Shown: positions 7,730 to 48,734 of the stretch, in pieces
Layout: each line of letters opens with the position of its first letter
Position numbering within the stretch: the stretch's first letter is position 1
Source of the DNA: a virus
IMG/VR virus record: IMGVR_UViG_3300042453_003401
Coordinates: 1-52,621 of that record
DNA: 52,621 bases
Direction: 5' to 3' (one strand)
The notes under the pieces: model-generated
Databases searched by the model: none
What the model saw: the letters and a program-made list of their open reading frames with translations, nothing else
What the model was told of the DNA's origin: nothing
Program-made: the position numbers and the translations under genes

Positions 7730-8137
7730 GTGAACATTTCACAGTTGCGAGATGTAATTACAACGCTCTTGAGCGCTAGCCCTAATTTAATCGGCTCGTA
7801 TATTTTTCCGAATGGCACCACTGTTCCCGCCGTGTATGTGGTGGGACAAAAAAGCGTGCCTGCAGAATGGAAAGTGACTGGCCTAGAGGTGACAATGCGT
7901 CAATACCCAGAAGTACTGCCTAGGGCTGGAGTGGGCGTAGTGGATGTGTTGCAGCAATGGGAAGTGATCCTCATGCAATACAATCCTGACGGCTCTGAAA
8001 TTGCTGCTGCGATGGACAGAATGAGCAGGCGCTTTCCTGATGCAGTTTTTCGCTACTTGCCTGGAGATGACGTAGCCTATGAGCGTTGTCGCATCATTAT
8101 TCCTGACAGAGAAATCCGCCGCTTAATTACGCAATAG
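7730..8137 (+). CDS. Probable tail completion / terminator protein
   Basis: A 135-residue protein starting at GTG 7730, only 3 bases after the T-tract of the preceding terminator, so it must be translated from readthrough RNA. NISQLRDVITTLLSASPNLIGSYIFPNG and QQWEVILMQYNPDGSEIAAAMDRMSRRFPDA resemble small tail terminator proteins that begin with an LRxxIxxxLxxxxPxLIGxY helix and continue with a sheet. Order (before an HK97 gp10-like gene and the chaperones) supports a tail completion role. Confidence 0.5.
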   Translation: MNISQLRDVITTLLSASPNLIGSYIFPNGTTVPAVYVVGQKSVPAEWKVTGLEVTMRQYPEVLPRAGVGVVDVLQQWEVILMQYNPDGSEIAAAMDRMSRRFPDAVFRYLPGDDVAYERCRIIIPDREIRRLITQ

Positions 8138-8138
8138 T

Positions 8139-8618
8139 ATGGCCATCAAAAACAAGCTTTCCCTGTCAGCATCTTTCAACAACGAAGATGCTATTGTCAA
8201 GGCATTATCAGATGCTTTCACTCAATGGGCAGAAGAAGATATCAACGAAACGCATTGGCGAGAGCAGTTTTTAGAGAGGGAATGGAAATACGATGGGAAA
8301 ACCAAAAGAAAAAATCCGTCCGCTCCGGTGAGGGACGCTGATAATCCTCGAGATATTTATGATTTTGGAAAACTTTACGAAAGTGGAGTGAAAAGTTTTT
8401 TGCTTGCCTCCACGGGCGCTGGCATAAGGGCTTCGTGGCACTGGGATGCTAAAAATTCATCTGGCAGTGAGTATGCTTGGTACGTGCACGAAGGGCGAGG
8501 CACCAACAAAGATGCTCGAAAGTTCACTGATGACATTGCCATCGCTGCCTCCTTCTTCCTTAAAAAGCCTGGAATGGCGCTACAACGCCGAGTTGCTCTT
8601 TCATTGAATGGCCTGTGA
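8139..8618 (+). CDS. HK97 gp10-like tail/neck protein
   Basis: A 159-residue basic protein. FGKLYESGVKSFLLASTGAGIRASWHWDAKNSSGSEYAWYVHEGRG resembles the LxxSI....yA.yvhfGt block of HK97 gp10-type head-tail joining or tail proteins, with a Tyr-Ala-x-x-Val-His-Glu-Gly element. It overlaps the next gene by one base (TGATG). The function in neck or tail assembly is inferred from the motif and order. Confidence 0.5.
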   Translation: MAIKNKLSLSASFNNEDAIVKALSDAFTQWAEEDINETHWREQFLEREWKYDGKTKRKNPSAPVRDADNPRDIYDFGKLYESGVKSFLLASTGAGIRASWHWDAKNSSGSEYAWYVHEGRGTNKDARKFTDDIAIAASFFLKKPGMALQRRVALSLNGL

Positions 8619-47706: not shown

Positions 47707-47879
47707 TTTCCCTGCCTGTTTGCATGCCCTGGGAAGTGACGATCAAAAACGATGGCAATGTGAATATATTGTCCATCCTCGCTCCCACTAGGGAAAAAGC
47801 TCGCATCATTGCAGAAGAGCTTTACCCTCATAGTCACTACGACATCCAGCTTCAGCCCGACTGGGACGACGCATCGTGA
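47703..47879 (+). CDS. Hypothetical small protein
   Basis: A 58-residue protein: MISLPVCMPWEVTIKNDGNV then NILSILAPTREKARIIAEEL and DIQLQPDWDDAS. A beta-helix-beta layout, with TREKARIIAEELYP typical of small phage proteins handling composite signals. It is followed by a strong terminator, so it ends a transcription unit. Confidence 0.6.
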   Translation: MISLPVCMPWEVTIKNDGNVNILSILAPTREKARIIAEELYPHSHYDIQLQPDWDDAS

Positions 47880-48022
47880 TCACTGGCTCCTTCGGGAGCC
47901 TTTTTCTTTGCCCATGAATGATCACCAGGGATGGGCTCTGTGGCATAGGTCCAGTCGTCATATTCTGGATCATTCCTCAGCCATCGTGCCAAACGCTCAC
48001 GCTCGCGTTCTTGTTCAGTCAT
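47852..48022 (-). CDS. Possible small leftward gene downstream of the structured RNA
   Basis: A 56-residue frame from ATG 48022: MTEQERERERLARWLRNDPE then YDDWTYATEPIPGDHSWAKK. It lies 50 bases beyond the terminator of the structured RNA on the same strand, and overlaps the end of the previous + gene by 28 bases. The first half looks protein-like and includes ARW, recalling the small-gene cluster. The second half runs through the + strand terminator hairpin, which makes it less convincing. Confidence 0.4.
   Translation of the reverse strand: MTEQERERERLARWLRNDPEYDDWTYATEPIPGDHSWAKKKAPEGASDHDASSQSG
47885..47909 (+). terminator. Intrinsic terminator
   Basis: GGCTCC (47885-47890), loop TTCG, GGAGCC (47895-47900), then TTTTTCTTT. 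A textbook Rho-independent terminator at the end of the terminase-like operon. Confidence 0.9.
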
Positions 48023-48071
48023 TGGAAACTGGACAGCTTTCTATTGCGAGTCTAGCTGGCTTCCTATAGGC

Positions 48072-48265
48072 AAAAAAAGAAGGGCCTTGCGGCCCTTCTT
48101 CCTTTGCTTGAGCTTCCGATGCCACAGCCTCCCTCCCAAAGGGGAGCACTCCTCTCACTAGCCCATGCAATGCTAGGGACAGTCCTCGCGGAAAGTCCAG
48201 AGTGCTCAGCAGCGTCCACCCTTGCGGCGTCAGCGACGGGCCTTTCGGCCAGGACCAACTCAAGC
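48072..48265 (-). ncRNA. Putative structured RNA of about 194 nt, class unknown
   Basis: On the - strand a closed RNA can be drawn. GCUUGAG (48265-48259) at the 5' end pairs with CUCAAGC (48112-48106). Inside are GGCC-GAAA-GGCC (48250-48239) and a long arm GAGCACUC/GAGUGCUC (48207-48200 with 48151-48144). That arm carries two hairpins: GGAC-UU-UCC-GCGA-GGA-CU-GUCC (48198-48177) and CUAGC/GCUAG (48176-48172 with 48162-48158). A 10-pair terminator with GCAA loop and seven U follows (48100-48072). Three loops are GNRA on this strand only. A candidate promoter starts transcription exactly at the terminal helix. Frames overlapping the region are probably shadows, since the best one runs through the terminator. 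I recognise no known class. Confidence 0.6.
48077..48100 (-). terminator. Intrinsic terminator of the structured RNA
   Basis: AAGAAGGGCC (48100-48091 read leftward) pairs with GGCCCTTCTT (48086-48077), loop GCAA, followed by T to 48072. The + strand also has an A-run/T-rich context (TTCCTTT), so weak rightward termination is possible. Confidence 0.85.
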
Positions 48266-48271
48266 TTGCAA

Positions 48272-48302
48272 ATCATAGCACCACTACCAGCCACGGCAGC
48301 AA
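48272..48302 (-). promoter_or_regulatory. Candidate promoter of the structured RNA
   Basis: On the - strand TGCTATGAT forms an extended -10 (TATGAT at 48277-48272), with TTGCTG (48302-48297) 19 bases upstream as a possible -35. Seven bases downstream lies the first G of the RNA's terminal helix. Confidence 0.45.
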
Positions 48303-48377: not shown

Positions 48378-48734
48378 ATGCTTTTTCGTTTTCTTCTTTC
48401 AGCTTCCGTTGTTTTGGGCGCTCTGGTGCCTGTTGCAGCGGAGGCAAAATCGTCGTGCGGCTTGGCCAGTTGGTACGGCCCGGGCTTTCACGGCAATCTC
48501 ACTGCCAGTGGCGAACGCTTTAACTCTCGTGCCCTTACTGCCGCCCACAAGAGCTTGCCATTCGGAAGCCGCGTGCGAGTGGTCAATCAAGCCACGGGTC
48601 GCTCTGTGACGATCAAAATTAACGATGACGGGCCTCACGTTCCCGGTCGGATCATCGACCTTTCAGAAAGCGCATTCCGGCAAATTGCCAGCTTGGGGCA
48701 GGGTGTTGCCAAGGTTTGCATCAGTCGCGTATGA
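48378..48734 (+). CDS. Secreted RlpA-like double-psi beta-barrel protein
   Basis: A 118-residue protein. Signal peptide MLFRFLLSASVVLGALVPVA with cleavage near AEA-K. Then the RlpA domain: CGLASWYGPGFHGNLTASGE, RFNSRALTAAHKSLPFGSRV, VTIKINDDGPHVPGRIIDLS, ESAFRQIA. RlpA proteins cut denuded glycan at the septum; the Glu in SGERFN and Asp in INDDGP correspond to the catalytic region. The usual INDRGP has Asp instead of Arg here. It lacks a SPOR domain. A phage copy might loosen peptidoglycan at lysis or during growth. It lies far from the lysis cassette, followed by its own terminator. Confidence 0.85.
   Translation: MLFRFLLSASVVLGALVPVAAEAKSSCGLASWYGPGFHGNLTASGERFNSRALTAAHKSLPFGSRVRVVNQATGRSVTIKINDDGPHVPGRIIDLSESAFRQIASLGQGVAKVCISRV

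Follow-up and report, generated by a model that had tools for sequence, protein, structure and literature searches.

Several structured RNAs of cyanophages are named in the accessible text of earlier reports, namely wcaG, manA, PhotoRC-II, glnA, abiF and CfrI (PMC12197685, PMC2864571, PMC9964418). The RNAs wcaG (RF01761), manA (RF01745), PhotoRC-II (RF01717) and glnA (RF01739) came from comparative genomics and are described, in the available parts of the sources, as cis-regulatory elements lying ahead of genes (PMC2864571, PMC9964418). CfrI, according to the accessible part of its source, is a non-coding RNA of ~225 nt from Synechococcus phage S-PM2 that is antisense to psbA (PMC12197685). 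GOLLD and ROOL are presented, in the accessible portion of one report, as large ornate RNAs that are independent and highly structured and whose function is unclear (PMC12286853).

The stretch of DNA analysed here (the window) is a 52,621-base virus record of IMG/VR with the gene content of a tailed phage, including genes for a major capsid protein, a tape measure protein, a tail fibre J-like protein, an endolysin, a thymidylate synthase and a primase-helicase. A feature on its minus strand, located between a divergent rlpA-like gene and a 56-codon open reading frame (ORF), is predicted to be a non-coding RNA gene with a transcript of ~194 nt (48072-48265, from the first base of helix P1 to the end of the U run). 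It resembles wcaG, manA, PhotoRC-II and glnA as a structured cyanophage RNA, but differs from them in having a terminator behind it, no fixed sense gene and no Rfam match. It shares with CfrI the property of being a non-coding RNA of a Synechococcus phage; no psbA-type protein (PF00124, Photo_RC) to which it could be antisense was found in the window record, and the S-PM2 record, that of a spontaneous deletion mutant, gave no covariance-model match to the present RNA. None of the six cyanophage RNAs listed above fits it. Like GOLLD and ROOL, which are partly phage-associated and much larger, the RNA is independent and highly structured; unlike them, it has no Rfam match. The pRNA of phi29 is another small multi-branched phage RNA gene, from which the present RNA is likewise set apart by having no match in Rfam. 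6S RNA has a similar length, a closed terminal helix and its own transcription unit, but takes the form of a long rod with a bubble at its centre, whereas covariation gives the present RNA a multi-branched junction, and no Rfam model reaches its cut-off.

No family of Rfam 15 matched at its gathering score in the window and 16 loci, in agreement with the earlier note on this DNA, which had recognised no riboswitch, ribozyme, tmRNA, 6S or RNase P signature. Permissive Rfam scans of three members gave sub-threshold matches only, and the strongest of those overlapping the RNA (25.1 bits against a cut-off of 50) lies on the terminator. A tRNA and tmRNA search of the window found none. An rRNA-like or E. 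coli-like sequence was rejected after the homologous RNA of Synechococcus phage S-CBS4 gave no match to E. coli genomes. No report of the RNA family was found in the open-access literature, including the accessible parts of PMC12197685, PMC2864571, PMC9964418 and PMC6370689. Structured non-coding RNAs of phages are an already known kind of molecule, of which this is a new family outside Rfam.

Homologous loci were first fetched through scans for rlpA and for the small ORF, and their intergenic gaps were aligned to the window RNA by blastn, with identities from 99% down to about 60%. Reading the relatives side by side revealed the shared core GGUCC...CCGYRAGGGUGGAC...AUCGGA and hairpins whose two sides both vary. 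A two-block pattern built from the first two core blocks, which is independent of the neighbouring genes, matched 60 viral stretches in IMG/VR, and the covariance model R1 recognised all 60, 59 of them at 90 bits or more and one, clipped by a contig end, at 47 bits. The same strict pattern, the only one used for the search of prokaryotes, matched 11 places in 84,980 bacterial and archaeal genomes (one per species), with a best model score of 23 bits. A hand tally of the pattern scans and an rlpA profile scan, checked with the covariance model, counts 95 IMG/VR contigs with the RNA, one of which (L167) is presumably S-CBS4 itself; L293, L204 and L207, matched by DNA patterns and not by the model, were excluded. 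The RNA occurs in a single copy in the window and in S-CBS4. Pairwise identity within the family has a median of 50% and falls to 33%, and lengths range from 161 to 223 nt with all residues modulo 3. The family is outside Rfam and recurs across a divergent cyanophage lineage.

The isolate S-CBS4 (two records) carries the RNA at 64501-64742. It was found by BLAST with one divergent member, and the covariance model gives a single match of 143.5 bits. The record has no feature there, which illustrates how annotation of cyanophage genomes by Rfam only can miss a gene-sized RNA. Because S-CBS4 was isolated on a culturable host, Synechococcus CB0101, the function of the RNA is directly testable. The covariance model had no match in 10 other rlpA-bearing cyanophage records, and BLAST against phages with L111, L019 and the window RNA as queries, or against plasmids with L111, yielded nothing beyond terminator-type matches.

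The covariance model has a full-length match in the window at 48104-48266 (-), with 114.5 bits. The 5' strand of P1 (48257-48265) pairs with its 3' strand (48106-48114); the terminal helix of GCUUGAG (48265-48259) and CUCAAGC (48112-48106) is extended by U-G and U-A pairs to 48257/48114. P2 (48255-48252, GUCC, with 48217-48214, GGAC) encloses P3, P4 and P5 in a four-way junction (48214-48255). P3 and P4 are the hairpins GGCC-GAAA-GGCC and CGUC-GCU-GACG, respectively, and P5 belongs to the CCGYRAGG box (48220-48227, CCGCAAGG in the window), whose C, C, G, A, G and G are invariant in 63/63 sequences. The 5' strand of P10 (48209-48213) pairs with its 3' strand (48121-48125). The P6 arm (48144-48207, P6 itself being 48207-48199 with 48152-48144) bears P7 with a GCGA loop (48198-48177) and P8 (about 48176-48159), and in the P8 loop GCAUGG (48163-48168) the C, A and U are each conserved in 95% of 63 sequences. 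The AUCGGA strand between P10 and P1 (48115-48120) is invariant in 63/63, a count in which the initial 38-sequence set was chosen partly by this motif and the additions by covariance model were not. The gene ends in an intrinsic terminator (48072-48100), read directly as AAGAAGGGCC-GCAA-GGCCCUUCUU plus a U run with seven U at 48078-48072, and an extended -10 element, TGCTATGAT, lies at 48272-48280. All of these elements are on the minus strand.

Direct reading found the helices, hairpins, terminator with seven U and -10 element of the earlier note at the coordinates it had given; P2, P10, AUCGGA (48120-48115) and the CC-GYRA-GG loop are elements beyond it. Its remark that all capped loops are GNRA holds for the window RNA and fails as a family trait, since the loops vary (P3 often has UUAAUU and P7 a GUAU-like loop). 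The invariant loop of GNRA type is CC-GYRA-GG (48227-48220). The P8 hairpin is absent altogether from L301, the most different well-flanked member. The longest member, L142 (230-452, -; 223 nt), has an enlarged P9 region.

The structure was evaluated on several alignments. The 89 rows collected comprised 54 distinct sequences, which were reduced to 38 representatives at 93% similarity after rows without ATCGGA or cut by a contig end had been dropped. From a plain MAFFT alignment of these 38 (A1), from which the structure was written by hand, RNAalifold derived 25 pairs, and one or more double changes occurred in 21 of these. The 55-pair structure on A1 had 91.5% standard cells, compared with 74.6% after shuffling and 42.2-46.5% when slid, and its covariation score was 0.490 compared with 0.194 and 0.109-0.138, respectively. 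In the model-aligned set of 63 distinct sequences (A3), which like A4 was fitted to the model structure and is biased in its favour, 95.6% of base-pair cells were standard (74.3% shuffled, 41-49% slid), the covariation score was 0.599 and double changes were present in 48 of the 55 pairs. Fourteen sequences outside model building, eight of which are also among the 63, had 94.4% paired cells (69.3% shuffled, 38-48% slid) and a score of 0.645. In an unguided covariation ranking the top 22 column pairs all fell inside the structure; covarying pairs below these, searched for a pseudoknot, were mixed and mostly non-complementary.

Individual helices differ in their support, which sequence comparison makes firm for P1, P2, P6 and P10, good for P3, P4 and P8, and weaker for P7 and P9. 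The terminal helix claimed by the earlier note is real beyond chance: all six modelled pairs of P1 (48262-48257) show double changes, with 100% of cells paired in A1 (n = 38) and 99.7% in A3. The eight-pair internal arm that it had also listed (48207-48200/48151-48144) shows double changes in seven of eight pairs, the first varying on one side only (n = 38), and P6 as modelled in A3 has them in 9/9 pairs with 99.1% of cells paired. P10 has double changes in 5/5 pairs (96.2-97.7% of cells paired), and P2 in three of four, the fourth being invariant (100% of cells paired). P3 and P4 covary in A3, in which P8 and P7 have 97.0% and 84.9% of cells paired, respectively. The two pairs of P5 are invariant and hence show no covariation. 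Residues conserved in at least 95% of the 63 sequences fill 13 columns out of the 62 that are unpaired and 12 out of the 99 that are paired; apart from the C-A-U of the P8 loop, these are mostly GG, CCG..AGG, the closing residues of P2 and AUCGGA, all at one junction. The CCGYRAGG box and AUCGGA, both invariant, could make contact through CCG and CGG.

Fold energy distinguishes the window RNA from shuffled sequence when the terminator is included (z = -2.61, with 1/200 shuffles as good) and hardly does so when it is left out (z = -0.88, 36/200). The earlier note had proposed this comparison, but the weak fold energy was overridden as a test because covariation is decisive comparative evidence. 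The bodies of S-CBS4 and L118 gave z values of -1.27 and -2.15, respectively. Compared with the covariation structure, the fold of lowest energy for the window RNA has its 5' half in the wrong place. The corresponding folds of L118 and S-CBS4 pair the UCC of GGUCC with the GGA of AUCGGA; this pairing was rejected in favour of P2 because L095-type sequences and L008 combine an altered UCC with an unaltered AUCGGA, and a double change preserves P2 in them.

The strand was determined from the wobble pairs. Read on the minus strand, the alignment contains 421 G-U cells against 25 A-C cells, the latter being the would-be G-U pairs of the other strand, and the minus strand is therefore the RNA strand. 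Covariation, these counts and the lack of an Rfam family at cut-off together strongly support, at the level of sequence, the earlier proposal that the minus strand encodes a new structured RNA, that is, a new family of structured phage RNA.

The earlier note had also assigned to the RNA its own promoter and terminator. The pattern TGYTATGMT has a single match in the window, where 1.95 are expected by chance, and this match alone carries no weight. The element TGNTANNNT is found at the same place in 59/62 relatives, with a distance of 11-15 bases to the start of the model, and at eight control offsets it occurs in none of 61-62; in the remaining L095, L098 and L203, TG stands directly against TATAGT. 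A consensus scan of the window detected no -35/-10 pair near the RNA, and the promoter part of the claim is accordingly retained as a conserved extended -10 element with no -35 element found. The terminator part holds throughout, with a hairpin of at least eight pairs and a T-rich tail behind the RNA in 62/62 and in 0-4 of 58-62 at seven control places; the same test applied to the opposite strand behind the RNA was positive in 22/62, and relaxing the stem to 5 pairs raises the control counts to 5-34. A window scan listed the terminator hairpin on the plus strand only, a stem-counting artefact, since direct reading places the U run on the minus strand. The RNA of S-CBS4 has a predicted start about 6-7 nt behind TGCTACTAT and would end at the terminator. 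The arrangement suggests that the RNA is its own transcription unit, transcribed from the extended -10 promoter.

A protein frame conserved in homologues in place of base pairing, which the earlier note had considered, is not the case. The three frames of the RNA strand are open across the RNA in 4, 4 and 3 of 62 sequences and those of the other strand in 19, 7 and 15 of 62, so that no reading frame is conserved and an overlapping protein was rejected.

The locus is probably best understood as an autonomous gene of the phage, encoding a structured non-coding RNA of ~190-250 nt that acts in trans and presents invariant junction residues to a protein or ribonucleoprotein (RNP), a reading held with moderate confidence. 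Transcription of the RNA would begin at an extended -10 promoter of its own, located in the intergenic region shared with the divergent rlpA-like gene; the RNA would fold so that P1 encloses the P2-P3-P4-P5 junction, the P10-P6-P7-P8-P9 arm and the invariant AUCGGA strand, and transcription would end at the terminator of the RNA itself. The trans-acting RNA would then offer GGUCC, CCGYRAGGGUGGAC and AUCGGA to a host or phage protein or ribonucleoprotein, working as a binding or sequestering RNA and not by antisense pairing. Invariant junction residues within a scaffold that compensatory change maintains are typical of RNAs that bind a partner or ligand, and less so of antisense RNAs. Docking to a protein or RNP is favoured over antisense action because the conserved residues cluster at the junction within such a scaffold and because complementarity to the rlpA start region, in a rough test, did not exceed that of controls. 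RNAs this constrained have usually proved to do something specific, and the present one probably does an as-yet-undescribed job during infection. More tentatively, and as something that we would not expect to hold in full, it might represent a new viral RNA class, core to one cyanophage lineage and kept despite loss and inversion of neighbours, that serves as an RNA machine or decoy by a mechanism unlike those known for other phage RNAs, its target being machinery of the host or phage such as RNA polymerase, the ribosome, an RNase or a defence complex.

A base-pairing regulatory sRNA, in which the body stabilises the molecule and the P8 loop GCAUGG or AUCGGA is the seed for phage or host mRNAs, is a less probable reading, though one to be taken seriously. 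Its size, promoter and terminator fit, the P8 loop is unpaired with its C-A-U 95% conserved, and known phage sRNAs often pair with mRNAs, according to the accessible part of one report (PMC12197685). Against it, the most conserved residues lie at the junction and not in one open stretch, and L301 has no P8. Duplexes between the RNA and the rlpA start region had an energy of -49.3, no better than the -48.4 obtained with the targets of other loci (p 0.21) or the -50.8 of shuffles, in a test that covered 55 of the 62 loci, took the rlpA start region as its sole target and assigned start codons by a rough rule.

A cis-acting leader, attenuator or riboswitch of the downstream small ORF, with the terminator as the regulated step, was the other function offered by the earlier note, as control of the 56-codon frame at 48022, and is considered quite unlikely. 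The two neighbours lie outside the RNA. They are an rlpA-like lytic transglycosylase gene (DPBB_1; PF03330, 95.3 bits) at 48378-48734 (+) and the small ORF (...EPIPGDHSW...) at 47852-48022 (-), which had no match in Pfam or PHROGs. The small ORF is downstream of the RNA in 84/89 rows, and in the window and most of the rows having it, it is on the same strand ~50-150 nt behind the RNA, as a leader would have it; the terminator directly after P1 is also reminiscent of many attenuators. However, 16 contigs (7 and 9 from two tallies) have the small ORF in the opposite orientation, no small ORF was found in 5/89 rows, and rlpA is divergent. The small ORF also occurs with no RNA in eight of nine loci tested (L102-L110 without L106). 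L301 retains the RNA (68.5 bits; 8021-8199, -) with 5.6 kb upstream and a gene order shared with the window and S-CBS4, and tblastn with rlpA and with the small ORF gave zero matches in it; the ORF adjoining the RNA there is a different one, resembling the frame directly after rlpA in S-CBS4. The leader reading is not supported, because the terminator is present in 62/62, the small ORF is inverted in 16 contigs and L301 keeps the RNA with neither neighbour found by tblastn.

The same loci bear on rlpA. The divergent gene is 97-246 nt upstream of the RNA in 87/89 rows, and the two rows with no adjacent rlpA are limited to 153 and 19 nt of upstream sequence; about 31 of the 89 rows were fetched with rlpA or small-ORF queries, which makes them unfit for testing linkage to that gene, and the loci are redundant, many coming from the same contigs via different queries. 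This near-universal linkage could reflect a shared function of rlpA and the RNA. Absolute dependence of the RNA on rlpA was rejected on account of L301. L302 (57.2 bits) likewise had no rlpA or small-ORF tblastn match, but was not counted, having only 219 nt on the rlpA side. Conversely, rlpA occurs without the RNA, with a clear model match only in 12/79 and 15/80 rlpA loci, some of the others being cut short. Because L301 retains the RNA, the small ORF inverts and both neighbours also occur without the RNA, the comparison identifies the RNA as the constant element and its neighbours as the variable ones, consistent with the autonomous trans-acting gene favoured here.

A role in virion structure or packaging, comparable to that of phi29 pRNA, an RNA ring in the DNA motor, has little to recommend it as an explanation. 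The RNA is compact and multi-branched and is present once each in the window and S-CBS4, and the palindrome CAUG in GCAUGG could give loop-loop contacts, but CAUG is lost in several members (L023, L089 and L142), P8 is absent in L301 and the gene is situated among small accessory genes. A catalytic RNA of a new class is very improbable; invariant residues are indeed concentrated in a multi-helix junction, but there is no sign of cleavage, the 5' end set by the promoter falling on P1 and the 3' end set by the terminator coming after P1, and no Rfam ribozyme matches. A DNA element or chance hairpins, to which the body fold energy hardly beyond shuffles would be congenial, can be practically dismissed, because covariation and the 421 to 25 imbalance of G-U over A-C imply selection on the base pairs of one strand as RNA.

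The small ORF belongs to a family with the consensus DPRNEEDYDTxxYGTEPIPGDxxW, which also turns up elsewhere in viral contigs, at loci that lack the RNA (L102-L110 apart from L106). A plus-strand terminator, GGCTCC-TTCG-GGAGCC-TTTTT, at 47885-47900 of the window faces the minus-strand unit of RNA and small ORF, which is therefore placed between two plus-strand units like an inserted cassette. A paired element was seen by eye in the interval that separates the small ORF from the terminator of the RNA (48023-48070, -) and at the same place in most relatives, with a pattern of roughly C(T/C)ATACnnnGCYRGCTAGnCTC followed by ATACnnnnnnRGCCGR; it may be a promoter or operator of the small ORF. In S-CBS4 (L182, 3939-4193), gp094 is annotated on the reverse strand of a frame that relatives conserve right behind rlpA (tblastn, L182 4178-4005), and its annotation may, judging from this conservation, be on the wrong strand.
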